From IMG/VR virus record IMGVR_UViG_3300031576_000240, positions 1 through 28,790 of that record: a stretch of 28,790 nt of DNA; one strand, 5' to 3'. The position numbers were made by a program, and so were the translations under genes. Positions 5,844-24,734 of the stretch are shown piece after piece (position 1 is the first letter of the stretch; each line of letters starts with the position of its first letter). Origin of the DNA: a virus. The notes below the pieces were generated by a model. It searched no databases and had not been told where the DNA came from. It worked only from the letters and a program-made list of their open reading frames with translations.

Positions 5844-5948
5844 CACTCCTCCACCAGCTTGTACTTCTTACTGTTGATAATGATACCATCTGCCAGCATC
5901 TTTTGTTCGGTGGATTTTTTGATCTTGCGGGCAATAAAAAATTATCAA
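5843..5948 (-). pseudogene. Small basic ORF broken at a T6 run (minus strand)
   Basis: The frame ending at TGA 5843-5845, which overlaps the YopX ATG as TGATG, reads IARKIKKSTEQKMLADGIII and NSKKYKLVEE. It has no good start, only an internal ATG giving 18 aa. Just upstream, AAAGAGG followed by TTG (5946-5948) is a good initiation site, but in another frame. Removing one T from the T6 tract (A6 on the given strand, 5936-5941) joins TTG-ATA-ATT-TTT-ATT to that frame, giving a 34-residue protein. It is therefore either a frameshifted remnant or a homopolymer error. Confidence 0.35.
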
Positions 5949-5991
5949 AACAACCTCTTTGATTTTTGACAACTAATCGCTCGTTTAACTT

Positions 5992-6300: not shown

Positions 6301-6506
6301 ATCCCTCGCTTTTTATTGCCTAACTCAATGATGCCAAGCTTATAAAGCAAGCTTTGCAGTGTGTCGTTGCCAAGCTCGCGCTTGCCGCTTAAGAACATGC
6401 TCATTGTGGGGCGCGATACGCCTACGAATTTCGCCAGGTATTCCTGGGTTATCTTCTGATCTTTCATCGCAGCCCGCATCGTCTTCAGTAATTTTATCGT
6501 GCTCAT
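6297..6506 (-). CDS. Cro/CI-type (XRE) HTH transcriptional regulator (69 aa)
   Basis: This is a single-domain DNA-binding protein. The helix-turn-helix covers residues about 19-45: ITQEYLAKFVGVSRPTMSMF followed by LSGKRELGNDTLQSLLYKLG, with VSRPTMSMF as recognition helix and the usual L-x-x-x-L packing. Its short length resembles Cro more than full CI repressors. It lacks a normal ribosome-binding site, and a candidate promoter (6514-6543) would start transcription within one or two bases of the ATG, like the leaderless lambda cI message. Two direct repeats in that promoter could be its own operator. The stop overlaps the next GTG. Confidence 0.82.
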   Translation of the reverse strand: MSTIKLLKTMRAAMKDQKITQEYLAKFVGVSRPTMSMFLSGKRELGNDTLQSLLYKLGIIELGNKKRGM

Positions 6507-6510
6507 ATTA

Positions 6511-6543
6511 GTTACCGTACAGTACCGTACGTCATCTGGTCAA
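6511..6543 (-). promoter_or_regulatory. Promoter with repeated operator before the HTH regulator
   Basis: Read leftward, TTGACC (6538-6543) is followed after 18 bases by TACGGT (6514-6519), a moderate sigma-70 match. Two copies of TACCGTAC (given strand 6513-6520 and 6523-6530) lie exactly 10 bp apart, one helical turn, and overlap the -10 and spacer. Predicted initiation near 6507 falls at the regulator's ATG (6506). Autoregulation by the HTH protein is inferred. Confidence 0.45.
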
Positions 6544-6696
6544 TATAAATATTAAAAATAATATGCTGACAGCAATACTCCCAAGCATCAACCTGCGCAC
6601 GTATCTACCAAAGTCGTCGTCTAGCTGCCGCTTTATTTCCTGCCTGCTCTTAAGCATTACCGCTATCAGGTCGCGTCCTTTAATATCTCTATTCAT
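6532..6696 (-). CDS. Small C-tail-anchored membrane protein (54 aa)
   Basis: It begins MNRDIKGRDLIAVMLKSRQE and continues with a basic amphipathic helix (IKRQLDDDFGRYVRRLM). A single transmembrane segment, LGSIAVSILFLIFILT (about 38-53), ends one residue before the stop. It should be tail-anchored with the N-terminus in the cytoplasm. It has a good site (GAGGTATT) and its ATG overlaps the stop of the VRR-NUC gene. Its last codons contain the -35 box of the regulator promoter. No function is recognised. Confidence 0.55.
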   Translation of the reverse strand: MNRDIKGRDLIAVMLKSRQEIKRQLDDDFGRYVRRLMLGSIAVSILFLIFILTR

Positions 6697-6995
6697 AATA
6701 CCTCACTATCGAAAAAGAATTGTTTAACATTTTCAATGCTTGTCGCGATGCAATGATCTCCTCCTGCCTCAACGATCTTCTCGCCTATCACTTCCTGTAG
6801 GCGGTTATAGCGCCGCATATCTTTATTATACTCAATACGCTTCACCTCAATACCTATAAACCTGCCTCTGTAGCAGCAGATAATGTCAGGGATACCTGCG
6901 GTAAAGCGGTCCTGCGCGCAGTAGTACCAGATGTCTGGACGCATCGTCTTTAGATAGTCAACGATCTCAGCTTTGACTTTGCCTTCAGGTGTCAT
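6693..6995 (-). CDS. VRR-NUC domain nuclease (100 aa)
   Basis: This is a stand-alone VRR-NUC (PD-(D/E)xK superfamily) nuclease. The core is residues about 34-52: GIPDIICCYRGRFIGIEVKR, with D37 and the E50-x-K52 pair as metal-binding and catalytic residues. The upstream segment (PEGKVKAEIVDYLKTM) matches the family's first helix, and a C-terminal GGDHCIATSIENVKQFF matches its last elements. In phages such single-domain proteins are thought to process replication or recombination intermediates and often occur near SNF2 helicases, one of which lies about 4.7 kb upstream in the same operon. It starts inside the end of the RHH gene. Confidence 0.9.
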   Translation of the reverse strand: MTPEGKVKAEIVDYLKTMRPDIWYYCAQDRFTAGIPDIICCYRGRFIGIEVKRIEYNKDMRRYNRLQEVIGEKIVEAGGDHCIATSIENVKQFFFDSEVL

Positions 6996-7185
6996 GTCGG
7001 TTATTAAACTCCTTAAATAATTTTAATATAAGTTCTTCAACAATTGAAGATGCTGTTCTGTCTTCAACTAAACAAATGTGCGAAAGCTTGGCGCAGCATT
7101 CGTCTGTAAAATTAAGATTAACTTTTCTTTTCGACCCTGTAAGACTCATCTTTGTCTTGGCACTTTTGACATAATATTTGCTCAT
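6985..7185 (-). CDS. Putative ribbon-helix-helix DNA-binding protein (66 aa)
   Basis: After a basic tail (SKYYVKSAKTKMSLTGSKRK) a strand VNLNFTDE leads into two helices: CCAKLSHICLVEDRTASSIV and EELILKLFKEFNN. The order strand, helix, turn (EDRTASS), helix is that of Arc/CopG-type RHH dimers, whose strands enter the DNA major groove. The ATG has a strong site (GGAGGATTTAA) and overlaps the TGA of the primase-helicase gene. A role in controlling the operon or plasmid-like partition is possible but not shown. Confidence 0.6.
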   Translation of the reverse strand: MSKYYVKSAKTKMSLTGSKRKVNLNFTDECCAKLSHICLVEDRTASSIVEELILKLFKEFNNRHDT

Positions 7186-9695: not shown

Positions 9696-9715
9696 TGCTT
9701 CGTCCTTGAAAAATT

Positions 9716-9788
9716 ACGGTGGCGGCAGGCACTGGATAACAATCACGAAAACCAATGCTTTTCATTCGTGGAAATTATCCGCCACCGT
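9716..9788 (-). promoter_or_regulatory. Nested stem structure in the primase-helicase leader
   Basis: Three nested inverted repeats occur: 9716-9723 with 9781-9788 (8 bp, ACGGTGGC/GCCACCGT), 9734-9739 with 9775-9780 (GGATAA/TTATCC), and 9744-9749 with 9765-9770 (CACGAA/TTCGTG). The outer repeat can extend to a perfect 10 bp (9716-9725/9779-9788) if the middle one yields. On the leftward transcript the outer stem is followed by AATTTTTC and then the ribosome-binding site of the primase-helicase. It could act as an attenuator, a translation control element or a replication start hairpin. Confidence 0.5.
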
Positions 9789-9807
9789 GGTGTGGGTTGA
9801 ACTTCTT

Positions 9808-10542
9808 CTAGTATTTAATGTCGTCCTTGGCCTCATCAACAACGTACGCCTTCGGCTCTTCCAGAGTTAACCTCCAGCCGACAGCATCGACACGGTCTTC
9901 ATGACTAGCCTTAAACGGATAAATGAACTTCATAACGAAGTAAGTATTGACCCCGTTCTTTTCCTTGTCGATGCCAAGCCGAAACGCATCGTTGCCAGGA
10001 GACTTCAGTGCTGTGACAGCTGACTCCCACGCACCGTAGCTGGATGACTTGAACGTTAACTGCATTGGCTGCTTGTCCTTGATGCTATACACCATCACGT
10101 CGTAGGTCTTCTGGCACAGCGGCTTGATGTTCTTGCCGTTCTCTTTGCGCCAGTTGTCGTAGTGCGCAGAGTTATTCTTCTCATCGTGATACGGACACGC
10201 GTCGCACTTGCCACCGTGCATGTTGTTGATACGATCGTAGGATCGGCATACCATGCCATCATCGTTGGTCATGTAGATAGCTCCACGCTTGAACGCGATC
10301 GGGATGATGTCGATCGACTCACCGTAGTTGGTATTGGTAAGACTGTTGTGAAACGTCCCCTGCTTGAACGTGCGTGGGCCATCCGATGTCTCAATGCCAT
10401 CCTGCACCACAGGGCTGTTGCTCTGCAGTAGTTGCAGTCTCGGGATCTTGATCATGTCGCTTGTGATCTCGTCGTTGATCAAACTTAAGCTTGATGTGAC
10501 GAGGTTGCGCTCTTCTTTTTGTGTTGATAGTTCAGTACTCAT
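9808..10542 (-). CDS. Phage protein with Cys4 motif, possible ssDNA-binding role (244 aa)
   Basis: The sequence shows a segment common in phage proteins lying beside replication genes: an early SDMIKIPRLQLLQSNSPVVQ part, then beta-rich pieces, then a zinc-like cluster (C-R-S-Y-D, GGKCDACPYHD, PLCQKTYD) at about residues 99-145, followed by VMVYSIKDKQPMQLTFKSSS. Four spaced Cys plus beta strands suggest an OB-like, zinc-stabilised fold. Together with its place immediately upstream of the primase-helicase this makes a single-stranded-DNA-binding role plausible but unproven. The ATG at 10542 has GGAG six bases upstream; a TTG at 10554 lies inside that site and is rejected. Confidence 0.5.
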   Translation of the reverse strand: MSTELSTQKEERNLVTSSLSLINDEITSDMIKIPRLQLLQSNSPVVQDGIETSDGPRTFKQGTFHNSLTNTNYGESIDIIPIAFKRGAIYMTNDDGMVCRSYDRINNMHGGKCDACPYHDEKNNSAHYDNWRKENGKNIKPLCQKTYDVMVYSIKDKQPMQLTFKSSSYGAWESAVTALKSPGNDAFRLGIDKEKNGVNTYFVMKFIYPFKASHEDRVDAVGWRLTLEEPKAYVVDEAKDDIKY

Positions 10543-10565
10543 AGTATTCTCCAAGTGTTATAGTG

Positions 10566-10868
10566 TTACGATTTAATGTGTAGCCACTCAAGATCACCAA
10601 CATCAGTGGTCTCAAGTGCTGCACTTGCTTCGAGCGGATTAGACTCATAAGATTTTTGTTCTAGTTCTAATTTTTTAAGATCATCCTTATACTTCTGTAG
10701 CGCCTCTAAAGGATCGCTATCATCCATGCATACATATTCATTATGAGTGCCGCTACTTATTTCAAATTCAGTCGAAGTTTTAAAATCTTTTCTCTCAATT
10801 GTTATTACAAGTTTGCAGTCACCAGTAGTAACAGCCTCTATCTCTCTAAACATTTCTTTAATATTCAC
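10566..10868 (-). CDS. Hypothetical acidic phage protein (100 aa)
   Basis: From a GTG at 10868 it reads NIKEMFREIEAVTTGDCKLV, a strand-rich part (ITIERKDFKTSTEFEIS), then a helical acidic part (PLEALQKYKDDLKKLELEQK). No family is recognised. The GTG is chosen because AAGGAGGA lies just upstream and its bases overlap the previous TGA as GTGA; longer starts would run through that site. It is coupled to the zinc-site gene upstream and lies just before the Cys4 protein. Confidence 0.6.
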   Translation of the reverse strand: MNIKEMFREIEAVTTGDCKLVITIERKDFKTSTEFEISSGTHNEYVCMDDSDPLEALQKYKDDLKKLELEQKSYESNPLEASAALETTDVGDLEWLHIKS

Positions 10869-11164
10869 GCGTCCTCCTTCATGAGCCAAATCGACTCACC
10901 TTTACTGTACGTCGTCTGCACTATGAACGTGTCGACGGTGTTCTCACCACAGCACGAGCTGAGATTTCCGTCGTCGCTATCAACATCATCCGCTTCTTCC
11001 CCGCATCCAAGGCAGAACGTGTACGTGCCAGGTCTAAGATGATCTCTTACCTCGATGTCTTTCTTATCAGGCCACTTCTTCATGTAATACTCAACCTGAA
11101 CCAAGCCGTGCTTGTCGATGTTGAGATGAATCGCGTAAACATTTTCTTTGTTTATGTTTTTCAT
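10865..11164 (-). CDS. Putative zinc-binding phage protein (99 aa)
   Basis: The protein begins MKNINKENVYAIHLNIDKHG at the ATG 11164, which has GTGAGG seven bases upstream. The open frame reaches further up (to 11314), but that part is out-of-frame overlap with the next gene and lacks a site. Residues about 51-70 carry CLGCGEEADDVDSDDGNLSS and CC, giving two cysteine pairs about 16 residues apart, likely a single zinc site in an acidic loop. A C-terminal strand region (VDTFIVQTTYSKGESIWLM) follows. Function is unknown; it sits in the replication block. Confidence 0.6.
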   Translation of the reverse strand: MKNINKENVYAIHLNIDKHGLVQVEYYMKKWPDKKDIEVRDHLRPGTYTFCLGCGEEADDVDSDDGNLSSCCGENTVDTFIVQTTYSKGESIWLMKEDA

Positions 11165-11171
11165 GGCGACC

Positions 11172-11630
11172 TCACTTGCTTCGTATCGAGATCTTCTCGT
11201 CGATGTAGTAGCTAACACCTGCTTCACGCAGAGACAGCGCTTGCTCGTTGTCGTTCTCAACGATGCGCTTGAGTTCACTCGACAGCGTCTTCCAATGGAT
11301 GCTTTCCTTGACAATGCCAGCTAGCCCGTGATCCTTGAACCACTGCATGGCCCTGAGTTGATCCTCGATCTGCGCCCGGTACGATGTCAGTACCGAGAAG
11401 CTGCCAAGGTTATTCTTGAACTTGTCTATGCCAAGCGCTTGCATGTGCTTCATCAATTCATCTGACACGCGGTGACGCTCGGCGCTTACCTCTTTCTCCT
11501 CACGTGCAATCTGATCAAGCCTGTCGTCAAGCTGCGACAGTAGCAAGGCAAGGTTGCCTAGCTTGTTGTGTATCTCTTCTTCACTTACTTCTTTGTGCTC
11601 GTTGATGAGCGCGGTTGATGTGTCTGACAT
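11172..11630 (-). CDS. Coiled-coil replication-region protein, Gp157/Gam-like in form (152 aa)
   Basis: A long heptad region (LALLLSQLDDRLDQIAREEK, then EVSAERHRVSDELMKHMQAL) is followed by GIDKFKNNLGSFSVLTSYRA, in the manner of Gp157 or Gam-like phage proteins, where a coiled coil leads into a short beta piece containing G-x-x-K-x-x-x-x-x-G-x-F. Such proteins protect phage DNA or interact with recombination enzymes. The resemblance is architectural and not conclusive. Strong site: AAAGGAGAATCTGTA before the ATG. It follows the SNF2 helicase with a 60-base gap that contains a dyad. Confidence 0.5.
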   Translation of the reverse strand: MSDTSTALINEHKEVSEEEIHNKLGNLALLLSQLDDRLDQIAREEKEVSAERHRVSDELMKHMQALGIDKFKNNLGSFSVLTSYRAQIEDQLRAMQWFKDHGLAGIVKESIHWKTLSSELKRIVENDNEQALSLREAGVSYYIDEKISIRSK

Positions 11631-11652
11631 TACAGATTCTCCTTTGAATGCT

Positions 11653-11668
11653 CTGGAACAATTTCCAG
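11653..11668. promoter_or_regulatory. 6-bp dyad before the coiled-coil gene
   Basis: CTGGAA-CAAT-TTCCAG is a perfect inverted repeat with a 4-base centre, just upstream of the ribosome-binding site of the 152-aa gene. Its centre resembles that of the hairpin at 16141-16167 (GGA-CAAT-TCC), so both may be operators for one regulator, or simply RNA hairpins. Confidence 0.35.
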
Positions 11669-11690
11669 TCGCGGTTATATTAGAACAAAA

Positions 11691-13436
11691 CTAAACCAGA
11701 TCAAGTAAATTATTCACGCGCATGCTAGATAGTTGCGAGGCGAAATCTTTTTTATCACGCAGCGCGTTGATGACCGCTGTGTCGATCGTCTGAGATGCCA
11801 CGATGTCAATGTAGTGACAGTTGTTTTTCTGCCCGATGCGGTGGATGCGATCCTCGCACTGAAGTCTATCGATGAGAGAGTACGAGTTACTATAGAACAC
11901 CATGCGACTCGCAGCTGTTAAATTGTACCCAACCCCCATCGTCTGCACCTGGCCAACTAGCACGCGGATCTTGCCTGCCTGAAATAAATCTACCACTTCC
12001 TGCCGGTAATCCATCGGCACTGACCCATCAATATTACCGCACACCCAGTTGTTCTTGCTGCACATCTCTTTAACGTTGGCTATGTCCTGCGTGTACTTAC
12101 ACACCACGATGACAGGGTTGTGGTCCGCATCGATGAGATCCTCAAGCGCTGCCAGCTTCGGGTTCGGATCAGTCTTGCACAGCTGCGTGATGTGCCTCGT
12201 CTGGTCGTCGTCCTCGTGTATGATAAACCCCTGCGTGATCTGAGACAGCTTGCCCATGCGCGTAAGAATATTCTGCGCGATCACGTGCTCTGCCTTGGCA
12301 TCGCCGCTCGCCGCCTTCAGCTCCACAACCATGCAGTTCTTCATCTCGTGGTACGCCTTGCGCAACTCGGGTGTTAACTCCACGTAAATAGTCTGGTACG
12401 ACTTGTCAGGCAGGTCCAAGCAATCCGCCTTGCGTATCGTGTACGTGTACGGGTTGATGATGCTTTGAAGTTCTTCCAGATTCTTGTACCCGGTGATGCG
12501 TGACACACCACGCGGCGCGCCCTGCACCTGCATCATGTTACAGTAGCGGTTCTTGAACGCGTTGAAGGATGGACCAAGGATGCTTTCACTGATGATGCGA
12601 AACTGGCTGAAATAATCCTCTGCTCCTTGGCTGACAGGCGTGCCGGTCATGAGCAAGACGTGCGTGAAATTCTGCGCTGCCTTGGCCATGGCTTTCGACC
12701 GCTGAGAATTGCTAGCCTTCATTTTATGGCTCTCGTCACATATAACAACTGTCTTTTTCAGATTTACTATATCTTCTCTGATGCATGGTCGACCAGCCTT
12801 ATCCTTAACAACAACCCACTCGTAATTAACGATGTGGATTCCAGCTTCTTTCAGTGCAGCTTTCCGCCTTGCCGGCGTGCCGCCCACCACGTGCGCTGTG
12901 ATGCTAGTCGCGCCAGATATTTCTCTTTGCCAATTAATAATCAGTGAGGCAGGACATATCACAAGAACAGATTGCAGTGACACGCCGTGCTCTCTGCACC
13001 ACATAATAGCAGCGATTGATTTTCCAATTCCCATGTCACCAATAAGCATAGCGCGCTTGTGCTGTTTACCCCAGTTAGCGAAGTCGTACTGGTGTTGATA
13101 CGGTGTAATGCATAGTGCTGGCCACTGGTATGTGACCTGCTCTGTCGCGTGATGATGCGCTGCTTGCAGATCACCTGCGTTGCCTTGTCTTGCCGCCTCT
13201 AGTAGCGGCGCGTCGTCGTACCACTTGAGAAGACGCAGTAGTACCGCGTTGACCACGGTGCGCGGTGCAGTCCAGTGCATCCTGCCTGGATGCCAGCGCG
13301 CTCCGGTGAGGGAGCGGACCTGGCTGAGTAGCGTGTCGAAGGTGGCGCGGTCCGCATGGTTGATGTCGATGTGATAGGCGTCGATGAAGAACTCGACCCT
13401 GGCACAGCAATGCTGGTTAGGTGTTGCTTGTAGCAT
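11691..13436 (-). CDS. SNF2-family DEAH/DESH helicase (581 aa)
   Basis: This is an ATP-dependent DNA translocase of superfamily 2. In order, numbered from the ATG 13436: an N-terminal region with HARP-like ARWHPGRMHWTAPRTVVNAV; the Q-like LCITPYQHQYDFAN; Walker A LIGDMGIGKSIAA (about 131-143); motif Ia VLVICPASLIINW; motif II VVICDESHKM (about 231-240); motif III LLMTGTPVSQ; then the second RecA lobe with VGQVQTMGVGYNLTAA and motif VI CEDRIHRIGQKN near the end. The longer frame starts at 13457, but the ATG 13436 lies one base after the upstream stop and fits better. Phage SNF2 enzymes often accompany VRR-NUC nucleases and are thought to aid replication or repair. Confidence 0.93.
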   Translation of the reverse strand: MLQATPNQHCCARVEFFIDAYHIDINHADRATFDTLLSQVRSLTGARWHPGRMHWTAPRTVVNAVLLRLLKWYDDAPLLEAARQGNAGDLQAAHHHATEQVTYQWPALCITPYQHQYDFANWGKQHKRAMLIGDMGIGKSIAAIMWCREHGVSLQSVLVICPASLIINWQREISGATSITAHVVGGTPARRKAALKEAGIHIVNYEWVVVKDKAGRPCIREDIVNLKKTVVICDESHKMKASNSQRSKAMAKAAQNFTHVLLMTGTPVSQGAEDYFSQFRIISESILGPSFNAFKNRYCNMMQVQGAPRGVSRITGYKNLEELQSIINPYTYTIRKADCLDLPDKSYQTIYVELTPELRKAYHEMKNCMVVELKAASGDAKAEHVIAQNILTRMGKLSQITQGFIIHEDDDQTRHITQLCKTDPNPKLAALEDLIDADHNPVIVVCKYTQDIANVKEMCSKNNWVCGNIDGSVPMDYRQEVVDLFQAGKIRVLVGQVQTMGVGYNLTAASRMVFYSNSYSLIDRLQCEDRIHRIGQKNNCHYIDIVASQTIDTAVINALRDKKDFASQLSSMRVNNLLDLV

Positions 13437-13437
13437 G

Positions 13438-13710
13438 TTATTCCAAATCTCCCGCATGCGGGTCGCCTAGCGTGTCAACACAGTGCCACTCGTACTCCCT
13501 AAGGATGCGATCATCTGTGGTAAATAGATCCGGCTTGAGAAGCTTCTTGCCGATGAGCCGGAAAGAGAAGAGACCCGCGCGTGGTACCGGCAACCCGTGC
13601 CATGCCTGTATACCTCTTGCATCCTCTTCGGTGATGATCGAATCCGTCTTCACGTGGAACGTTACCTCGTAGACCCGCGGCATCCCGCGTTGAATATAGA
13701 CGTCTAACAT
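13438..13710 (-). CDS. Hypothetical phage protein (90 aa)
   Basis: It begins MLDVYIQRGMPRVYEVTFHV with alternating strands and ends in an acidic tail (DTLGDPHAGDLE). The middle, ARGIQAWHGLPVPRAGLFSF, is Pro/Gly-rich. No family is recognised. It starts with a usable site (GAGAGGTCTGAG) and stops one base before the SNF2 gene ATG, whose weak site lies in this gene's last codons, so translation of the two is probably linked. Confidence 0.6.
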   Translation of the reverse strand: MLDVYIQRGMPRVYEVTFHVKTDSIITEEDARGIQAWHGLPVPRAGLFSFRLIGKKLLKPDLFTTDDRILREYEWHCVDTLGDPHAGDLE

Positions 13711-13740
13711 CTCAGACCTCTCTTTTTATGGTTAAATAGT

Positions 13741-14064
13741 TTAAGCCAGCTTTTCTTTAATAAGCAATTGCTCTGCATCCATCTTTATCTCAGTATCCAT
13801 CTTTATCTCAGTATCCATCTTTATCTCAGTGCCGCCAAGTTCAAGCGAGCCTATTTTCGCAGCGCCGTTTGTCTTCGACACATCCGACACATACTTGTGA
13901 AACTCAATCTCAACCTCGACAGATTTCAACGCTGTATTAGCCAGCATCGCAAGCGATCTTGCCCTTGCAGGATTCGAGTCGCCCTTTCTCAATGAGTCGA
14001 TCTCATCAAACAGCACGTTCCTTAATCCGGCAGACGTTCTATTCATTTTTTCTTCGCTTTCCAT
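13741..14064 (-). CDS. Hypothetical phage protein with C-terminal TEIKMD repeats (107 aa)
   Basis: Residues about 1-60 are helical (RTSAGLRNVLFDEIDSLRKG, SNPARARSLAMLANTALKSV) and resemble small phage proteins of about 80-100 aa whose role is unknown. The C-terminus holds three perfect copies of the six-residue unit T-E-I-K-M-D (about 79-96), encoded by three identical 18-base units, and then EQLLIKEKLA. The repeat probably grew by replication slippage and may vary in copy number. It lies upstream of the SNF2 pair in the operon. Confidence 0.6.
   Translation of the reverse strand: MESEEKMNRTSAGLRNVLFDEIDSLRKGDSNPARARSLAMLANTALKSVEVEIEFHKYVSDVSKTNGAAKIGSLELGGTEIKMDTEIKMDTEIKMDAEQLLIKEKLA
13777..13830. 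repeat. Tandem 18-bp repeat, three perfect copies
   Basis: The unit ATCCATCTTTATCTCAGT is present three times without a mismatch (13777-13794, 13795-13812, 13813-13830). It encodes the TEIKMD repeats on the minus strand. Copies are in frame, so gain or loss alters only the protein's length. Confidence 0.92.
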
Positions 14065-14070
14065 GTTCCT

Positions 14071-14664
14071 TCATCCTTTCCATCTTTCCATTGATAGGTT
14101 ATATAATATAGTAGCTAAAACAAACTCTTGCTTCCTCTCTCCAACGAGAGAGTCTAATCTAGTAAACTTAAATAACGAATGACCTCTGGCCAAAATAAAA
14201 TATTTAAATAGCAAAGCATAACAATCTTCATGCCAAGATTTTTTAAAAACACATCCAATATAGTCATTGTAATTAATCTTCTTGCTACAAATGACGCAAA
14301 GCATGTTCTCAACAGCACAGCGCTTGCTCCACCTTTCTAATGTCGAACGCTTTTCTTGACACTCACATCTCACCACATATTTTTCCTTATCATAATGATC
14401 AACAACATCTATCCATTCATCATAGCTTTCATAAAATCTGTAGTTCATCATTTGAAGGCCCGAAGAACCAAACTTGTCACCATCTCCTCTGAATAAATGC
14501 GTTGTCATCAAAGCCTTATGGTATCCAATCTTCTCGCAGTATTTATCAACCAAACTCATCACCTTATCTGGGCACGTGTATTTATTCCTTGATATCCTTT
14601 TCAATAAATCTCTCAGCTTCGTTGGCGGAAGCTTACGTTTCCTATAACGGTAAACGTAAGGCAT
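14071..14664 (-). CDS. Hypothetical Cys-rich phage protein (197 aa)
   Basis: It starts MPYVYRYRKRKLPPTKLRDL, a strongly basic lead. The centre (about 99-140) carries several cysteines: RCECQEKRSTLERWSKRCAV and ENMLCVICSKKINYNDYIGC, then SWHEDC. A CxC, a CxxC and two more Cys with a His suggest one or two zinc sites. The end is hydrophobic and helical. The ATG at 14664 is preferred over a TTG at 14679. It overlaps or abuts the stop of the HTH-like gene upstream (14666). No family is recognised; a nucleic-acid-binding role is possible. Confidence 0.6.
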   Translation of the reverse strand: MPYVYRYRKRKLPPTKLRDLLKRISRNKYTCPDKVMSLVDKYCEKIGYHKALMTTHLFRGDGDKFGSSGLQMMNYRFYESYDEWIDVVDHYDKEKYVVRCECQEKRSTLERWSKRCAVENMLCVICSKKINYNDYIGCVFKKSWHEDCYALLFKYFILARGHSLFKFTRLDSLVGERKQEFVLATILYNLSMERWKG

Positions 14665-14665
14665 A

Positions 14666-15067
14666 TCATCCGCCAACAATTAATTTGTTATGCACGATCG
14701 TCGCGAGCGATGACACAGCGTCAGAGCACGCGCGGATGCTCGCCTTGCAGTCGTCGACCTCCACGGCGAGAGCTTTGATCGCTGCGTTATTATGCCCTGT
14801 CCTCGCGTTGTGCGGTGTTGTCACTTGCCGCTTGTCCTTCACCGGGTACGGGCAGGCCTCGAGTAATTCTTGCACGGTGACATTACATGCTGTGGCAATC
14901 TTCTCTAGCGTTGCTTGTACTACCGGCTCGCCGTCGCTAATCTTGTGCCACGTGCCTGTCGATACCGGTGTAACCAAGCTCAACTGCAACGCGTGGTTCT
15001 TCACATGGTCCAATCCCAGTCTCGTTAGCACGTAACTTATTAATGCGTCGCCGTCTTTTGATTTCAT
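14666..15067 (-). CDS. HTH-like phage regulator (133 aa)
   Basis: Residues about 29-72 read LSLVTPVSTGTWHKISDGEP and VVQATLEKIATACNVTVQEL-LEA. This is the second half of a Cro/CI-type HTH (S-x-G-T-W-x-K-I-x-x-G as recognition helix and turn, then T-L-x-K-I-A and the terminal L). The C-terminal half is helical and polar (AIKALAVEVDDCKASIRACS) and may dimerise. It sits near the promoter of the leftward operon, a usual place for a phage middle-gene regulator. Its target is not known. Confidence 0.55.
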   Translation of the reverse strand: MKSKDGDALISYVLTRLGLDHVKNHALQLSLVTPVSTGTWHKISDGEPVVQATLEKIATACNVTVQELLEACPYPVKDKRQVTTPHNARTGHNNAAIKALAVEVDDCKASIRACSDAVSSLATIVHNKLIVGG

Positions 15068-15078
15068 GTCGTCGTTCC

Positions 15079-15411
15079 TTACTTAATTAAACTCATGTAA
15101 CAATTCTCCGTTGCCCACTCAAGACAACAGTCAGTCGGGATCACACCACCATCTTCCATGCAGTTTTTTATGAATGTTGCTGGGAGATAGCGTTTCGCCG
15201 TGTGCGCGCTTATCTTCGCGTCAACCAGTGCCACCGGCCTCGGTTGTGCGCATGAGGTGATGAGCATGACTGTAATTCCAACCGCCACGCCGCAAGCAAA
15301 ACTTATTAGCATTCTAGCCGTGCTTTTCTTGCGATGGTGTGCAGCGCCAAGCTTAAGCGCGTCTATCCTAGCCCATGCCGCCGATAATTCTGGAGGTATT
15401 AGTGTGCCCAT
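15079..15411 (-). CDS. Phage membrane protein (110 aa)
   Basis: The N-terminus is cytoplasmic and basic (IDALKLGAAHHRKKSTARML), then one transmembrane segment ISFACGVAVGITVMLITSCA at about 36-55 is followed by a periplasmic part with five cysteines (NCMEDGGVIPTDCCLEWATE and NCYM), suited to disulfides. L-I-T-S-C could be read as a lipobox but lies too deep after the basic N-terminus to be typical. The ATG at 15411 has GGGGA eight bases upstream; 15426 is the alternative. It overlaps the gene before it by 13 bases. Confidence 0.6.
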   Translation of the reverse strand: MGTLIPPELSAAWARIDALKLGAAHHRKKSTARMLISFACGVAVGITVMLITSCAQPRPVALVDAKISAHTAKRYLPATFIKNCMEDGGVIPTDCCLEWATENCYMSLIK

Positions 15412-15617
15412 TTTATAAATCCCCATTCACCATATTTTAATAACTTACTAGTCATGATTTTATATTTGCCTGAAACATCAACACACTTGCGTGTCTTGAC
15501 TTCACTCGCGGCCTCTTTCAATATTCTTTTGACGTCATCGCATAGCTCTGTGTGCGTCGGTATGCGCCCCAACTTGTCCTGCAAAACTTCGGAAATCGTT
15601 TTCTTTTGTAATTTCAT
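15399..15617 (-). CDS. Hypothetical helical phage protein (72 aa)
   Basis: It begins MKLQKKTISEVLQDKLGRIP and continues THTELCDDVKRILKEAASEV, a pattern of two short helices with a TIS-E-V-L start that could resemble an HTH but lacks a clear recognition helix. The end is aromatic (YGEWGFIKWAH). A G-rich site (GGGGGGATGAGAA) precedes the ATG and lies inside the in-frame continuation of the upstream interrupted ORF. No function is recognised. Confidence 0.55.
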   Translation of the reverse strand: MKLQKKTISEVLQDKLGRIPTHTELCDDVKRILKEAASEVKTRKCVDVSGKYKIMTSKLLKYGEWGFIKWAH

Positions 15618-15674
15618 TTCTCATCCCCCCTTTTCTTTTAAAATATCATCAAAACATTTCTGGCAGACTATAAA

Positions 15675-15854
15675 TCATTTTGCTTTAAACGTATCTGGGA
15701 ATCCCATTTCAAAATAATTCTTCATAACATTGAAAGCATAATCATCCATATCACTGCTACGGACCCTGTTTTCTGGTAATGTTCCCTCACAGCAATTTTT
15801 ACATGGCCAATGGTAGCTAATTCTAACACTGATCATTCCATCAGGTGTTTTCAT
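15675..15854 (-). CDS. Zinc-ribbon-like ORF interrupted by an in-frame TGA
   Basis: From ATG 15854 it reads MKTPDGMISVRISYHWPCKN and CCEGTLPENRVRSSDMDDYA, and stops at TGA 15675-15677 after 59 aa. In the same frame the sequence goes on FIVCQKCFDDILKEKGG to TGA 15621-15623, three bases before the next ATG. The first part holds CKNCC, the continuation holds CQKC, and together they give the two knuckles of a zinc ribbon. The continuation also contains the next gene's ribosome-binding site. The intact gene was thus probably 15621-15854 (77 sense codons plus the interrupting codon). TGG to TGA is the simplest change. Confidence 0.55.
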   Translation of the reverse strand: MKTPDGMISVRISYHWPCKNCCEGTLPENRVRSSDMDDYAFNVMKNYFEMGFPDTFKAK

Positions 15855-15856
15855 AC

Positions 15857-16123
15857 TTATTCCCCCTCTTTGCGTTGTTTAAGGTCATTAAGACTCAATA
15901 TATCCATGAAGTTGTCGTCCGTGCGGCTGTAAGCTTGTAGCGCAGGCGAATTCTCGTGGTGCTCAAGCACTATACTGTATGGGACGTTACCTATGGCCTG
16001 AGTGAGAGTCAGTGGCGACGGGGTGTTGATGCGCTCAATCTTGGCGAATGCAAGAGTGAGCGTGACGCCGATTGCGACACCTGCAGCTAACCAGATAAGA
16101 TTTTTGTGTTGTTGGCTTAACAT
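15857..16123 (-). CDS. Phage membrane protein (88 aa), first gene of the leftward operon
   Basis: It starts MLSQQHKNLIWLAAGVAIGV and has one transmembrane segment at about 8-27, then a polar, probably periplasmic part (VPYSIVLEHHENSPALQAYS) and an acidic end. The ATG has AGGAG nine bases upstream. It is the first gene after the strong promoter at 16169-16197, hence likely expressed earliest. Its single-TM form and place suggest an early host-takeover or exclusion factor, but no family is recognised. Confidence 0.6.
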   Translation of the reverse strand: MLSQQHKNLIWLAAGVAIGVTLTLAFAKIERINTPSPLTLTQAIGNVPYSIVLEHHENSPALQAYSRTDDNFMDILSLNDLKQRKEGE

Positions 16124-16140: not shown

Positions 16141-16167
16141 GGCACCAGGACAATTCCTTGGTGTGCC
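16141..16167 (-). promoter_or_regulatory. Imperfect dyad at the start of the leftward transcript
   Basis: GGCACCAGGA-CAAT-TCCTTGGTGTGCC is an inverted repeat with two single-base bulges. It begins just downstream of the -10 box at 16169-16174, where transcription should start. It can be an operator or a 5' stabilising hairpin. Its core GGA-CAAT-TCC recurs in the dyad at 11653-11668. Confidence 0.45.
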
Positions 16168-16168
16168 T

Positions 16169-16197
16169 ATCATAATTATTAATTTTGTTTGTGTCAA
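16169..16197 (-). promoter_or_regulatory. Strong sigma-70 promoter for the leftward operon
   Basis: Read leftward, TTGACA (16192-16197, perfect -35) is followed after exactly 17 bases by TATGAT (16169-16174, five of six matches to the -10). Start of transcription is expected near 16162. The first ATG is at 16123. It is the best sigma-70 match seen between genes and can drive the whole set of minus-strand genes. Confidence 0.82.
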
Positions 16198-16306
16198 TAT
16201 GCTTATTTTTGCGGAAGTATATATTGTATGAGTGATATTAATGAGTTAGGTATGTGAAAATAAATAATAAAAAAGATTGTGAAATTAATAAGATTGTTTG
16301 CGTGAC

Positions 16307-16322: not shown

Positions 16323-16448
16323 TTTAATGGGAAACTTGGAATAAGAATTTAATAGTGGTTTTGTGCAAAATTGTTAATTTTGTTTTTCAAAATAGGTGGA
16401 TTGTGGGTGGAAAAGAGGGGAAATTTTGCTTTTAAGATTTATTTTTAA

Positions 16449-16465
16449 TTGGCACGAATATTGCA
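16449..16465 (+). promoter_or_regulatory. Sigma-54 (RpoN) promoter
   Basis: The sequence TTGGCACG-AATA-TTGCA matches the full sigma-54 consensus (YTGGCACG-N4-TTGCW), with GG at 16451-16452 and GC at 16463-16464 separated by the required 10 bases. Transcription should start about 12 bases after the GC, near 16475, and run rightward toward the terminase and virion genes. It would need host RpoN and a bacterial enhancer-binding protein; no such activator is encoded in the window. Confidence 0.72.
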
Positions 16466-16471: not shown

Positions 16472-16492
16472 AGAGAGAGAGAGAGAGAGAGA
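16472..16492. repeat. (AG)10 dinucleotide tract
   Basis: Ten AG units plus a final A follow the sigma-54 promoter and cover its predicted start site. Such tracts change length by slippage and can cause reiterative initiation by RNA polymerase. Confidence 0.9.
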
Positions 16493-16627
16493 AGATTTTA
16501 CTTATTCATATATATATTATATGCTTATATCACTCTATTTTTTGATTTTTCGATATGTCGTACCCCCCTTTTGGAAGGTATATTACGTATAGCTTATATG
16601 ATATAGACGTATATGTTATAGAGATGT

Positions 16628-16636
16628 TGATATAAT
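16628..16636 (+). promoter_or_regulatory. Extended -10 sigma-70 promoter candidate
   Basis: TG-A-TATAAT is a perfect extended -10 element pointing rightward. No -35 at the right distance is seen, which extended -10 promoters do not need. It could give a second, sigma-70 start for the late transcript. Confidence 0.4.
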
Positions 16637-16729
16637 GACGTAATAGGCTATGACGCGGTAAGTCATAAGTACCTCGTAAATTGCTATATATGTTTAGCCC
16701 CCCCACGGAACGTACGCACATGGTATTGT

Positions 16730-16773
16730 AATTACGAAATTGTGGTTAGTCTGCTATATTTATTTTCGTAATT
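16730..16773. repeat. 10-bp inverted repeat in the late leader
   Basis: AATTACGAAA (16730-16739) and TTTCGTAATT (16764-16773) are perfect complements with a 24-base loop. There is no T-run after it, so it is not a simple terminator; it is a candidate protein-binding or RNA-folding site. Confidence 0.4.
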
Positions 16774-16926
16774 CTTATCATCTTGTCAAATTGTCCGACT
16801 GTACATGACGTTATTTGCATTGGTTTTGACGACAAGTCGCTTTTTTTATAACGATTCGGGTATGTTGGCCTTACTGTTGTACTAACGACAATGACAAGAG
16901 CTATTACAATAACGACGTCATGTGCC

Positions 16927-16981
16927 ACACTTTCCTAGTAACAGGGGGTGTAAAATCATTACAACAATGACTGGAAAGTGT
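16927..16981. repeat. 9-bp inverted repeat in the late leader
   Basis: ACACTTTCC (16927-16935) and GGAAAGTGT (16973-16981) are perfect complements with 37 bases between. Inside the loop GTGTAA could compete for TTACAC just downstream (16987 region), allowing alternative folds of the leader RNA. Role unknown. Confidence 0.35.
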
Positions 16982-17050
16982 TGCGGTTACACGCGATGCG
17001 GCGATTCTTTGTCACGTGCGCCACCTTACCGCGCCATGCCGGGGGCCGAG

Positions 17051-17248
17051 CCACAACCACCCACGACATACTGGATCGGGAACCACCCAATAGCGCACCA
17101 CCTTCTCTCTTATAAGTATAACGACAGTAATCCTACCTCACATGCCATCCATTGCCATACATGACACAACACCCCTAGACAACGCAGCACATTCCTTATA
17201 CACTGCTTACAATGGCATTACAGCCACTGAGCCAACCCAACTGTCACA
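17051..17248 (+). promoter_or_regulatory. C-rich, G-poor leader segment (rut-like)
   Basis: By hand count about 72 C against 24 G occur in these 200 bases, with few stable stems. Such C-over-G stretches are the landing sites of Rho. It precedes the terminase small subunit gene, so untranslated late RNA may be subject to Rho termination unless protected or translated. This is inferred from composition. Confidence 0.35.
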
Positions 17249-17896
17249 ATGTATGCCTTAGCAGGCGATCGTCGATTAAACGGCCATAATAGGGACTCTG
17301 ATAGGGAGATCAAATACCATATGCCACCGATGTCACCGCATTTAGCGAGGAAGTTACAGACTGTGATGGTCCCTGACCGTGCCAGCCAGTTCCAACAGAC
17401 CCCTAGCATCAGTCAGATAGAATTCGACGAGTCGATGAGGGAGTCTCGCAAGCGAGCGATCGACGCGATACTGCTTGAGCATCAGCAGGAGCAGTTAAAG
17501 CAGCAGCACGGGTATGCGCATTCCGTCGAGCTGCGCAAGATGTACGACGAGATGTGGCCGGAGCTGCTCCGCGCAGCCGCAGCAAGAGACACAGCGCGCA
17601 TCATTGATCTCTTCTCACCACTCGCGACGCTGTCTGTTATGGATATTGCGATGAACGGGGAGAGCGAGAAGCACCGCATAGCGGCGCGCACTGAGATGTT
17701 TCATATGGCGCAGGGCAAGCCAGTGGCGCGAGCGATCAACCTGAACAAGAATATCGACGGCATTGATGAGAAGGAGTTGGACGCGCTACTGCGGTCTATG
17801 CTGCATGACAGGGAGTTGCCGCAGCAGCCCTCCTCATCCACGCTTGAGATTCCATCCTCATCAACTTCCTCCCCCACCACTAAGCTCGACTCATGA
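17249..17896 (+). CDS. Terminase small subunit (probable)
   Basis: It is assigned mainly by position: it precedes the large terminase with an ATGA overlap (17893-17896). The N-terminal part has SQIEFDESMRESRKRAIDAI followed by LLEHQQEQLKQQHGYAHSVE, a DNA-binding-sized helical region with a coiled coil. The middle (RDTARIIDLFSPLATLSVMD) resembles the oligomerisation part of small terminases. The tail, Ser/Pro-rich and disordered, may contact the large subunit. An alternative start at 17321 (MPPMSPHLARK) has GGGAG 12 bases upstream; 17249 has no site, so the true N-terminus may be 24 residues shorter. Confidence 0.6.
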   Translation: MYALAGDRRLNGHNRDSDREIKYHMPPMSPHLARKLQTVMVPDRASQFQQTPSISQIEFDESMRESRKRAIDAILLEHQQEQLKQQHGYAHSVELRKMYDEMWPELLRAAAARDTARIIDLFSPLATLSVMDIAMNGESEKHRIAARTEMFHMAQGKPVARAINLNKNIDGIDEKELDALLRSMLHDRELPQQPSSSTLEIPSSSTSSPTTKLDS

Positions 17897-19437
17897 TAGC
17901 GGACCTAACCAAGCTGAGCTACGCGGAGAAGCAGCGTGCGTATGAGCTACTCAAGCTTGAGGACAGCCTCAAGAAGAAGCGCCCCATCGACGGGTATGTG
18001 CCGCATGCGAAGCAGCTTGAGTTTCACAAATCCAACGCTCAAATTAGGCTGTTTGCGGGAAGTAATCGCTCGGGAAAATCGCATGCTGGCGTGTGTGAAG
18101 ATGTATGGACAGCGCTAGGGATTCATCCGTACCGCGAGATCAAGGTGCCGAACAAGGGATGGATTTGTGCTACAGATTATCCGCACGGTATTGCTACGGT
18201 GATATTACCGAAGTTGATGTCGATGCTGCCAACGGACTGCATAGCGCGTACCATCAACAACTCGCAGGGGATACCGAGTATCATTCAGTTCAAGAATGGA
18301 TCTGTTATAGAATTCAAGTCGTACGATCAGGATCAAATGAAATTCGAGTCTTCGGATTTCGACTGGATTCATCTTGATGAACCGTGCAAAGAAAGAGTTT
18401 ACAACGCAGTAATGAGAGGCCTTACCGATCGCAACGGCAGGTTATGGATGACGATGACGCCGCTATCCGAGGCATGGCTGTTTACGAAGTTATGGATGCC
18501 AGGCATTACGCACACAAATCCGCTAATCGAGTGTTTCAAGATGTCGATCTACGACAACCCGTATCTCAGCAAAGAAGGCGTCGAGCAGTTCGCGGCAACG
18601 GTCAGCGACGACTACAAGCAAGCCCGCCTGTACGGCGAGTTCCAGCAACTACAGGGCCGGGTGTTTAAGAACTTCAACTACAAGACGCACGTGCTACATG
18701 GTTTCGTGCCACCACCGCAGTACGTGTGTTATATGGGTGTGGACCCGCACGTGTACGGGCGCAAGAATCAAGCGGCGCTGTGGTGTTGCATTACGCCAGA
18801 TGACGACATCGTGTTCTTCGACGAGATCTGGAAGGACTACACGATCGAGACGCTGCGCGACAAGATTATCGAGCACGACTTCGTGATCGAGGATAATCGC
18901 CCCACGCCGCGCTACAACATCGCAGCCAGAGTCATCGACACGAGCATCAACATCCGCGAGGCGATGAACCATACGAACTTTAAGAACGTGATTGAGGCGA
19001 CTGGCAAGTACGGCAAGCGTCTTTCCTTCAAGATGGCGCAGAAGAAGAATCTTTTAAATTCGGGGCTTGAATATATAAACGTGCTACTTGATAATACCCT
19101 CGCATCACCGCACCGCACCCCGCGCATTTTCGTCGACGACAAGTGCACCCGTCTGATTGAAGAGCTTGATCTTCATGGGTGGAAAAATAGTCAGACCGAG
19201 GATAAGGTCGAGAAAGAACTCAACACGTACAACGACATGATAAGTATCGTGCGTTATATATTATCTATGAATCCAGTAGCCGTCAAACACCACGTCCCGC
19301 TGAGACTACAGTCGCCTGCGTTAGCGGCCAGCGCACACACTTCACACACAAGTAATACAAATGTAATACAGCCATCTCGGTTTGGTTCCTACGCAGGTCC
19401 ATCGACGATACGGTACGGAGGATTTTATGGGCGCTAA
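17893..19437 (+). CDS. Terminase large subunit (514 aa)
   Basis: This is the DNA-packaging motor and nuclease. Walker A is FAGSNRSGKSHAG (about 54-66), Walker B with the catalytic Glu is DWIHLDEP (157-164), and the coupling motif is near LWMTMTPLSEAW (184-195). The C-terminal RNase H-like nuclease has YMGVDPHVYG with D284, VFFDEIW with D310/E311 and VIDTS with D349, the acidic cluster that cuts the concatemer. Length is normal. The C-terminal tail (SRFGSYAGPSTIRYGGFYGR) is Gly/Tyr-rich and may bind the portal. It is GC-richer than the capsid genes. It overlaps the small subunit by 4 bases and the portal gene by 11. Confidence 0.94.
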   Translation: MIADLTKLSYAEKQRAYELLKLEDSLKKKRPIDGYVPHAKQLEFHKSNAQIRLFAGSNRSGKSHAGVCEDVWTALGIHPYREIKVPNKGWICATDYPHGIATVILPKLMSMLPTDCIARTINNSQGIPSIIQFKNGSVIEFKSYDQDQMKFESSDFDWIHLDEPCKERVYNAVMRGLTDRNGRLWMTMTPLSEAWLFTKLWMPGITHTNPLIECFKMSIYDNPYLSKEGVEQFAATVSDDYKQARLYGEFQQLQGRVFKNFNYKTHVLHGFVPPPQYVCYMGVDPHVYGRKNQAALWCCITPDDDIVFFDEIWKDYTIETLRDKIIEHDFVIEDNRPTPRYNIAARVIDTSINIREAMNHTNFKNVIEATGKYGKRLSFKMAQKKNLLNSGLEYINVLLDNTLASPHRTPRIFVDDKCTRLIEELDLHGWKNSQTEDKVEKELNTYNDMISIVRYILSMNPVAVKHHVPLRLQSPALAASAHTSHTSNTNVIQPSRFGSYAGPSTIRYGGFYGR

Positions 19438-21808
19438 TGGTTTTGGGCATCAACCTCCGCAACAAGGTATTCCACCTGGCTTGCCGCAGCAAGCTACATC
19501 ACCGGCAATGCCGGAAATTGGTATGCCGCTACCTTTTCAACCAACGCAGCAAGCCATGCAAGACTACGACGACAATAAAGTTAAGGAGCCTGCTGAAGAA
19601 GATCTGCCTGTTAAGCGCGGCTATGACAAGAAGAAGATCTCAGCCATGCTTCTTGAGCGCATCCGTGTGATGAGCCAAGACCGTGACGAGTGGTTATCAA
19701 GGCAAGTAGAATTTCTATCGGGATGGAACGAGTATTTGTGCCCCACACGCGCAGGGCCTTGGGCTGGGGCGTCTGACCTCCACCTCCCAGTGACCATGGA
19801 GCATTGCCTGACATTACACGCACACCTGTTAGATGTGTTCTTTGGTATGCGCCCTTGGTTTTTTGCGCGCCCAAGAGAGAAGATGGACCGCGAGACAGTG
19901 GAGATGAAGGAAGTCTTTATGCACTGGGCGCTTACTAGCTATGTGAATTACAATGATGGTATTTTCCCGGTGATTGATGAGTGGTTGTGGGAAGTTATTA
20001 CGACAGGCTTCGGCATTCTCAAGCTGCGCTGGGAGTGCCAGTACCGCATGAGTTTGGTAGTTGAAGATTGGCTCAACCCTGAGACAGGCGAGGTTCACAA
20101 GAGAGCTGAGAAGAAGCGTGTTAAGATATTTGAAGGACCGGTACTTGAGCTTTTGCGCAAAGAAGATGTCCTTATGCTTGGGGACTATAACGACATTGAT
20201 CGCATGCCATGCTTTGCGCATCGCATCTGGCTATCTGAGTCTGATGTGAATCGTAGAGTTGAGGCTGGGCTGTACGACAAGGCAGCTGTGAAGCGCATCA
20301 TTGCAGCAAGAGCTGCTAAGAAGGATCGCATCTCTAGTATTGATCAGAGTTCGCACGACTACCGAGATGAGCAGGATTTGAATGAAGGAGTTATTACTCG
20401 TGATAGTCATGCTAACGAGGAGTTGTTTGAGATATATGAGGCGAATCTCACATACGACCTAGATGATGACGGATTTTCTGAGGAAGTTATTCTTTGGGTT
20501 GAGGCGGAGACCGGCGAGATTGTAAGGGATACTGATTTAGACAAGGTGAGCACCACGGGTCGCCGCCCACTGTTCAAGGGTGATCTGTATAAGCGGCCGC
20601 ACCGCGCGTACAGCATGGGGCTTCCGGAGCTTCTGTATCCGTACAACAAAGAGATCGATGCGATACATAACCAGAAGATCGACTTTGCTACTATAACAAC
20701 GATTCCGTGGTTCCTCTACAATCCAGCATCAGGCATGAAGAATGAAGAGATGCGTATTGGTCCAGGAGTTGGTATTCCGGTTGATGATGTTAATAACTCG
20801 GTGCGCTTTCCGACGTTCCAGCAGTCTTCTGGTTTTCACAATCGCGAAGAAGATTCGCTTATGGAGATGGCAGGTAATATTTCTGGTGTGAGTGGCCCCA
20901 TCGCTGGGCAGGCACCGGCATCTCTTGGCGCAGGCAGAACAGCTACTGGTATGTCGTCTCTGCTTCAGAGGCAGAATGTAAGAGTTGATGTGTTTGTGAA
21001 GCGTCTTCAGTATACGTTCGGGCGCATGCTGCAGGAGCTTGATGCGATGATGCAAGTGCGTCTTCCTGACGGGGTTATGTACCGTGTTCTTGGTTCTGAT
21101 GGGTATCAGCTTCTCAAGGATGACGGCACACCTGTGATGAAGGAAATGAAGACGCGCTTTGAGCTGCGTGGTCAGGTTGATTACGAGATGTTGGCTAACT
21201 CGGCGTCTGCTAACAAAGAGCTTGAGTTCCAGAAGGCGATGCTGCGTGCACAGACGATGATTAATCCGCTTGATCTGCAGCTTGGATTGCAATCGCCTCG
21301 CACAGTTTATGAGCTGCGCAAGTCTGTGTTAAAGGCGCAAGGTGTAGTTGATCCTGATTTGTTTTTGGAGAAGCCGGACCGGTTGCAGAAGCCGCTTGAA
21401 GCAAGAGAAGAAGTTATGTCTTGTGTACAGGGCAAGCTGCCATTTATTGTGATGAACGATGATCACCCACACAAGATTGAAGTGCTGAAAGCTTTCATTG
21501 AGTCGCAGGAGTACGCGCAAGGAAAGCAGATTGGAAATATTGCAGCGAATGCGGACGCTATGTTTTTAGATGCAATTAGAAAGCATGAGCAATTTGATCA
21601 AGCAATGCAGGCGCAAGCAGCGCAAGGTAACGTGACAGGGCTTCAGATTAGCCCATCGATGTCAGCAAGAGTTGCAGGTCAGGTTGATCAGCAGACTCAG
21701 CAGCCTGTTGCTACAAGCGGAATGAATCAAGCGCCACCTCCGCCGCAAGGCGAGCGTCCGGAGATGCGTGGTAATAATGTCTCAGTGCCGCCAGTACAAG
21801 TCCAATAG
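19427..21808 (+). CDS. Portal protein (793 aa)
   Basis: This is the dodecameric head-tail connector and DNA channel. The start at 19427 is fixed by GGAGG six bases upstream; the open frame extends 45 bases further without a site. After a Gln/Pro-rich N-terminus comes a region typical of long portals: WLSRQVEFLSGWNEYLCPTR, GASDLHLPVTMEHCLTLHAH, then the clip/stem area and the loop-like TATGMSSLLQRQNVRVDVFV near residue 505. The last 100 residues are Gln/Ala-rich. Its size is like P22-type podovirus portals (P22: 725 aa). Its stop TAG precedes the next ATG by three bases. Confidence 0.85.
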   Translation: MGANGFGHQPPQQGIPPGLPQQATSPAMPEIGMPLPFQPTQQAMQDYDDNKVKEPAEEDLPVKRGYDKKKISAMLLERIRVMSQDRDEWLSRQVEFLSGWNEYLCPTRAGPWAGASDLHLPVTMEHCLTLHAHLLDVFFGMRPWFFARPREKMDRETVEMKEVFMHWALTSYVNYNDGIFPVIDEWLWEVITTGFGILKLRWECQYRMSLVVEDWLNPETGEVHKRAEKKRVKIFEGPVLELLRKEDVLMLGDYNDIDRMPCFAHRIWLSESDVNRRVEAGLYDKAAVKRIIAARAAKKDRISSIDQSSHDYRDEQDLNEGVITRDSHANEELFEIYEANLTYDLDDDGFSEEVILWVEAETGEIVRDTDLDKVSTTGRRPLFKGDLYKRPHRAYSMGLPELLYPYNKEIDAIHNQKIDFATITTIPWFLYNPASGMKNEEMRIGPGVGIPVDDVNNSVRFPTFQQSSGFHNREEDSLMEMAGNISGVSGPIAGQAPASLGAGRTATGMSSLLQRQNVRVDVFVKRLQYTFGRMLQELDAMMQVRLPDGVMYRVLGSDGYQLLKDDGTPVMKEMKTRFELRGQVDYEMLANSASANKELEFQKAMLRAQTMINPLDLQLGLQSPRTVYELRKSVLKAQGVVDPDLFLEKPDRLQKPLEAREEVMSCVQGKLPFIVMNDDHPHKIEVLKAFIESQEYAQGKQIGNIAANADAMFLDAIRKHEQFDQAMQAQAAQGNVTGLQISPSMSARVAGQVDQQTQQPVATSGMNQAPPPPQGERPEMRGNNVSVPPVQVQ

Positions 21809-23816: not shown

Positions 23817-24734
23817 ATGGTTTTGTTACGCAGTAATATGGGTGATATTTTCGGCACGACTCACCTACCATCTATTCATCACATTATCTTTAATGCTTAT
23901 AATCAGAAGAAAGATTTTATTCCGATGATTTTTAATGTGACTAAATCAGATCGGGATATTGAACAAACTACGCAAATTGCAGGGTTTGATATTGCTACCA
24001 CTGTTCTTGAGGGTGAATCGGTTACATACCAAGATCCTATCCAAGGGTTTGATAAGACATATACGATGGCAAAATATGGCAAAGGGTTTAAATGTTCACA
24101 AGAATTAATTGATGATGGCAAGGAATTGACTATCTCAAAACTTAGCCAGGCTCTTGGTAAAAGTATATATGAAGTTCGCCAGGTTGAAGCTGCTGATGAG
24201 TTTAATTCTGGGTTTTCTACAGCAACAGGCAATCCGAATGGTGAGGCATTGTTTTCGACAACTCATGCTCTTGTTCGTGGTGGCACAGAACAAAATCGTC
24301 TTTCAACTGATGCAGATCTTTCGATTACATCACTGCGCCAGGCATTGATTGATTTTCGTGATACGCGTGATGATGGTAATTTACGGACTAATTTAAAACC
24401 GACTAAGTTACTAACATCAGGAATTGGTACAGCAATGTATGATGCTTTTGAGATTTTAAAATCTTCAATGCGTTCAGATACATCTGCTAATGCAATTAAT
24501 GCTTTTCAAATTGAAGGTCTTGAGCCGGTATATTGGGATTATTTAACTGATACTGATGCATGGTTTTTGTTGTGTGAGACTTCTGAAAATCAGATGTATT
24601 TCTTTGATCGTCTGGCCCCAGAAATGTCTTCTGATTATGACTTTGATGCAGGAGCTTATAAAGTTAAAATGTTGACTCGTTTTGCGCATGGCTGGTCTGA
24701 TTGGCGCGGCGTATATGGCACAAACGGGGCTTAA
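23817..24734 (+). CDS. Major capsid protein, Mu gpT-like (305 aa)
   Basis: This is the HK97-fold shell protein. The sequence matches the gpT pattern: an N-terminal arm, then IPMIFNVTKSDRDIEQTTQI, TYQDPIQGFDKTYTMAKYGK, FSTTHALVRGGTEQNRLSTD, LTSGIGTAMYDAFEILKSSM, and a final AYKVKMLTRFAHGWSDWRGV. The length is normal for the gpT group and no cleaved prohead domain is evident. The site is AGGAGGAAATT. If the upstream GroES-like gene is real, this protein would be its likely client (inference). Confidence 0.85.
   Translation: MVLLRSNMGDIFGTTHLPSIHHIIFNAYNQKKDFIPMIFNVTKSDRDIEQTTQIAGFDIATTVLEGESVTYQDPIQGFDKTYTMAKYGKGFKCSQELIDDGKELTISKLSQALGKSIYEVRQVEAADEFNSGFSTATGNPNGEALFSTTHALVRGGTEQNRLSTDADLSITSLRQALIDFRDTRDDGNLRTNLKPTKLLTSGIGTAMYDAFEILKSSMRSDTSANAINAFQIEGLEPVYWDYLTDTDAWFLLCETSENQMYFFDRLAPEMSSDYDFDAGAYKVKMLTRFAHGWSDWRGVYGTNGA

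Follow-up and report, generated by a model that had tools for sequence, protein, structure and literature searches.

The 28,790-base virus record analysed here (the window) carries a sequence at 16449–16465 on the + strand that matches every consensus position of a sigma-54 (RpoN) promoter and faces the packaging and capsid genes across the spacer that separates them from a divergent block of early genes. Judged from its sequence and setting, it is very probably a functional sigma-54 promoter, and it probably drives the late operon. As a rule, transcription of phage late genes relies on sigma-70 assisted by helpers from the phage, on phage sigma factors or on a phage RNA polymerase. Sigma-54 polymerase differs in being silent until an ATP-driven activator opens the complex. 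A sigma-54 late promoter could keep these genes tightly silent and then couple their expression to a host signal. The promoter class is known; what is unusual is its place before phage packaging and capsid genes.

Sequence and uniqueness of the site

The initial annotation had described a full-consensus RpoN promoter with GG-N10-GC spacing, lying in non-coding DNA between divergent operons and pointing at the late genes, and each element of that description holds. The sequence, TTGGCACGAATATTGCA, places exactly 10 bases between GG and GC and matches all sigma-54 consensus positions. It is the only zero-mismatch occurrence of TGGCACG-N4-TTGCA in the window; allowing three mismatches yields 32 matches versus 28 by chance. 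On a sigma-54 weight matrix built from approximate frequencies that we set ourselves, the site scores 20.7, which is the maximum, and the runner-up in the window reaches 16.3, 4.4 bits lower. Sixty copies generated from the window by an order-2 Markov model gave a best score of 18.9, none equalling 20.7. By arithmetic estimate, about 0.003 full matches to YTGGCACG-N4-TTGCW, counting both strands, are expected by chance per window, and about 7e-5 rightward copies within the spacer; these figures are not proper p-values, because the motif was chosen after reading the sequence, and the spacing-controlled scans of viral DNA described below, which are independent tests, outweigh them.

The leftward genes (about 2225–16123) encode a large primase/helicase-like protein, an SNF2 helicase and proteins resembling Pam3 gp33 and gp34, and the rightward genes, beginning at 17249, encode a putative terminase small subunit, the terminase large subunit (TerL), the portal and the major capsid protein (Table 1). 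The early genes also include one for an HTH-like protein (14666–15067). The site lies within the spacer of about 1.1 kb between the two blocks, where the short open reading frames have no convincing ribosome-binding site before them. The first late ORF found no family match in profile searches and is assigned by position. Further left, a rightward lysis cassette (709–2228) comprises a GH108 lysin and an overlapping spanin-like pair; in a circular or permuted genome it would form the end of the late unit. The spanin-like genes (1817–2228) consist of a small membrane protein with an embedded lipoprotein-like ORF and, together with the GH108 lysin, suggest a Gram-negative host. Within the early region, three perfect 18-bp repeats (13777–13830) give the protein encoded at 13741–14064 on the − strand a recurring EIKMDT motif in its C-terminal part.

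Table 1. Features of the divergent spacer and the flanking operons (window coordinates)
Feature	Position	Strand	Basis or remark
First gene of leftward early operon, 88 aa, N-terminal membrane segment	15857..16123	−	ORF
Sigma-70 type promoter TTGACA-17-TATGAT of leftward early operon	16169..16197	−	11/12 consensus positions
21-nt element copy 1, AATTATTAATTTTGTTTGTGT	16174..16194	+	Three-copy family; fills −35/−10 space of early sigma-70 promoter
21-nt element copy 2, AATTAATAAGATTGTTTGCGT	16283..16303	+	Three-copy family; centre about −183 from predicted late start
21-nt element copy 3, AATTGTTAATTTTGTTTTTCA	16369..16389	+	Three-copy family; centre about −97 from predicted late start
Predicted sigma-54 (−24/−12) promoter, TTGGCACG-N4-TTGCA	16449..16465	+	Unique exact match, maximum matrix score
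(AG)10.5 dinucleotide run over predicted start / initial transcribed sequence	16472..16492	+	Tandem Repeats Finder
Predicted transcription start, ~12 nt past −12 GC	16474..16478	+	Promoter geometry
Long non-coding leader of putative late transcript	16476..17248	+	About 770–780 nt to first late ORF
First late ORF, putative terminase small subunit; true start may be 17321	17249..17896	+	ORF; function by position
Terminase large subunit	17893..19437	+	phrog_2 E 5.8e-25, PF03237
Portal / head-tail connector	19382..21808	+	phrog_332, phrog_1216
Major capsid protein	23817..24734	+	phrog_371; 32–34% identity to annotated major capsid proteins

Elements of the divergent spacer

The early and late operons clearly have different promoter types, since the early operon is preceded by a sigma-70 promoter with 11 of 12 consensus positions, and in a consensus scan of the + strand of the spacer sigma-70 matches did not exceed chance (5 against 5.2 expected). 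The spacer also contains a 21-nt element in three copies, all upstream of the sigma-54 site and none elsewhere in the window; the repeat strength it confers on the spacer was reached in none of 200 dinucleotide shuffles. Copy 3 overlaps a perfect dyad, CAAAATT-gtt-AATTTTG, at 16366–16382. Sigma-54 activators normally bind about 80–200 bp upstream of the start, and copies 2 and 3 lie at such distances; no known activator consensus could be assigned to them. A search of the spacer for IHF sites gave chance-level matches only, and no sequence match pointed to a plasmid origin of the spacer. A GCACC...GGTG pair at about 16141–16163 was considered as an NtrC site and rejected, as its spacing is wrong; it may fold into a hairpin within the 5' leader of the early transcript, with a stability that is not significant.

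At sigma-54 promoters transcription starts about 12 nt downstream of the −12 GC, a geometry that would place the late start within the AG run. The leader predicted from there has an overall folding z of −1.5, which is not unusual, and includes three consecutive hairpins at 16720–16780, 16800–16925 and 16922–16988 with z values of −3.35, −2.40 and −2.82 against shuffles. These hairpins, spanning 16720–16988, might represent an RNA element or mark a packaging site. Neither an intrinsic terminator nor an Rfam family was detected between 16476 and 17248.

Spacing of sigma-54-type sites in viral DNA

Searches of viral contigs, genome contigs and phages returned no close relative of the window virus, the best TerL identity being about 35%. 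About 1.17 Mb of sequence around distant relatives contained no site comparable to that at 16449–16465, and no strong sigma-54 site was present in two Manatee Spring phages that are distantly related. Because close relatives were not found, sigma-54 sites in viral DNA were tested as a class, with the −24/−12 spacing serving as an internal control.

In a first scan of IMG/VR we searched for TTGGCACG-N{2-6}-TTGCAA, in which N4 is the sigma-54 spacing. Among the matches listed, N2, N3, N4, N5 and N6 occurred 25, 11, 45, 27 and 13 times, respectively (N4, 45/121; p = 9e-6 for the excess), and all nine intergenic matches listed had N4 (p = 8e-5 for the bias). A second scan, using a different −24/−12 pair with the same spacing series, gave 20, 16, 48, 24 and 14 among the matches listed (N4, 48/122; p = 7e-7), with six of eight intergenic matches listed at N4 (p = 0.06). 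In both scans, the sigma-54 spacing alone was in excess among the matches listed, and pooling them placed it at 15 of the 17 intergenic sites listed. Some matches are near-copies, some contigs possibly carry host genes (HSP20, HSP90) and the gene calls are crude, and the results are statements about the class of sites; at that level, they indicate that selection acts on the spacing of sigma-54-type sites in viral DNA.

A comparable arrangement in a marine phage clade

The arrangement seen in the window, a sigma-54 site facing the late genes, recurs in an unrelated clade of uncultured marine phages (L188/L226, L229, L235, L238, L239, L258 and others) that is distantly related to phages of the Roseobacter CRP-3 and Pelagibacter HTVC103P types. 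The L188 virus, which bears one of the intergenic matches, has leftward early genes and rightward genes for the terminase small subunit (TerS), TerL, portal, scaffold and capsid, and its divergent region has three tandem sigma-54 sites directed toward TerS and one toward the early genes (8494–8713 in its record, L226; further members are loci L229–L258). Across 66 regions upstream of terL in terminase relatives of L188 we counted 47 YTGGCA-N6-TTGC sites, which have the sigma-54 spacing, and none at eight other spacings; the 47 come from related sequences and are not independent, although their number and positions vary between members. The clade has one to six sites, in both orientations, in the interval between the early genes and terS, 200–300 bp or more upstream of terS, and nearly all sites in the longer records are confined to this divergent region. 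Dense AAAAGCTT repeats surround the sites in 10 of the 14 members examined.

The window and the marine clade share sigma-54 sites in a divergent region between early genes and a TerS-TerL-portal-scaffold-capsid block, with short repeats nearby, but differ in detail: the marine phages have one to six sites in both orientations and AAAAGCTT repeats, whereas the window has one site and the 21-nt element. Their TerL proteins share 21% identity over 355 residues; the two are therefore not closely related, and the arrangement would be of independent origin.

A subgroup of the terminase relatives that matches only residues 90–611, and has Pelagibacter phages as its closest cultured members, had no sigma-54 sites upstream of terL; to our knowledge, SAR11 bacteria lack RpoN. 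The cultured relatives CRP-1, CRP-3, CRP-235, CRP-738, HTVC033P and HTVC115P do not carry a sigma-54 array, and DNA similarity searches revealed no cultured phage with similar arrays.

Alternative explanations

Several features count against the site being the promoter of the late operon: distant relatives lack it, the window has one site against one to six in the marine clade, neither a known activator site nor a significant IHF site was recognised, and the first late ORF begins about 780 bp downstream. The long gap is compatible with a sigma-54 promoter that serves a separate non-coding transcript or leader element, extending from 16476 to about 17000, with the late operon promoter located nearer the first late gene. 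The three tandem hairpins lie within the gap, and a weak sigma-70-like sequence, TAGACA-17-TACACT at 17176–17204, is found just upstream of the first late ORF. That sequence, however, is within the number of matches expected by chance, the gap shows neither a terminator that would end such a transcript nor an Rfam family, and the marine-clade arrays are likewise remote from terS, so we consider a separate transcript rather unlikely.

The consensus match could also be fortuitous, in which case late transcription would come from a promoter that was not recognised or from read-through. The motif was picked post hoc, a full match is expected by arithmetic estimate about once per 300 windows of this size, and the lack of the site in distant relatives would fit as well. 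Yet an intergenic match is rarely due to chance, since among the matches listed in the viral scans 2 intergenic sites had one of the four wrong spacings and 15 had the right one; moreover, location and direction fit, and no rival promoter on the + strand rises above chance, which makes a fortuitous match quite improbable. Reuse of TTGGCA as the −35 element of a sigma-70 or other promoter (TTGGCA-15-CATAAG) is very improbable: TTGGCA agrees with TTGACA at five of six positions and CATAAG with TATAAT at four of six, but the 15-bp spacer is too short, the −10 element lacks the final T, the combination was not listed in the consensus scan, and the perfect −12 element would be left unexplained.

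A possible early-to-late switch

If the site is the sigma-54 promoter of the late operon, host sigma-70 RNA polymerase would transcribe the leftward genes from 16197–16169 early in infection, and host sigma-54 polymerase would sit on 16449–16465 as a closed complex. Binding upstream, an enhancer-binding protein of the AAA+ type, most likely host-encoded, would open the complex, and transcription would begin near 16476 and continue through the putative TerS, TerL, portal and capsid genes and beyond. The best candidate operator is the three-copy 21-nt element. A single factor could serve both promoters, since copy 1 lies in the early promoter and copy 3 about 97 bp before the predicted late start; bound to the element, it might repress the early promoter and assist the late one, acting as an early-to-late switch.

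The activator would most likely come from the host because the Sigma54_activat domain (PF00158) was found neither in the window, as the initial annotation had noted for enhancer-binding proteins, nor in 15 of the 16 viral records bearing sigma-54-type sites; the remaining record, of 116 kb, gave a weak match. The window is a fragment, and an activator gene may sit in the missing part. A search of the window for a T7-type RNA polymerase, run without a positive control, gave no match. The suggested ties of the site to nitrogen, envelope stress or motility signals are speculation.

More generally, host sigma-54 might act as an early-to-late timer that is widespread and independently evolved in uncultured phages, with one repeat-bound regulator shutting the early and opening the late promoter and an ATP-dependent activator perhaps reading the state of the host; we put this forward as a tentative and rather doubtful generalisation. 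The spacing-controlled scans and the marine-clade arrays predict that phages with such sites should fail or yield few virions in rpoN-deficient hosts.

Known systems and other viral sites

Compared with bacterial sigma-54 −24/−12 promoters, the window site shares every consensus position, the GG-N10-GC spacing and repeats at a plausible activator distance; it differs in lying in a phage, in having a start that is predicted only and in the lack of a recognised activator site. The only annotated phage precedent that we met is Pseudomonas phage YuA (Yuavirus; NC_010116), in which three late-region promoters amid structural genes are annotated as "-24/-12 consensus, high activity (2000 MU)". These promoters (38392–38570, 40888–41035 and 47152–47312) scored low on our approximate matrix and have no recognisable sigma-54 consensus, and the YuA genome has no YTGGCA-N6-TTGC. 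They lie inside the structural region, whereas the window site is in the early/late divergent spacer. A Yuavirus-type late promoter was rejected for the window, as no −24/−12 sequence is shared with YuA. A search mostly confined to the open-access literature yielded no publication on a phage late promoter that depends on sigma-54. The earlier statement that few phages use sigma-54 agrees with this literature, but the scans suggest that such sites are not rare in uncultured viruses.

Other viral records have sigma-54 sites in further settings. In two other related records, L125 (4980–5230, − strand) and L149 (4976–5163, − strand), tandem sites each stand behind a GAGTTATGTAAAT-like element; TTATGTAA occurs in eight copies at L149 and six at L125, and nowhere else in those loci. 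A phage represented by L112 has sites before an endolysin gene and before a head scaffold gene (L112 11979–11996; L227 3608). In large virus contigs, sigma-54 consensus sites precede genes for HSP20 (L192 724–741), HSP90 (L215 9090–9107) and a sigma-70-family factor (L221 2277–2294).
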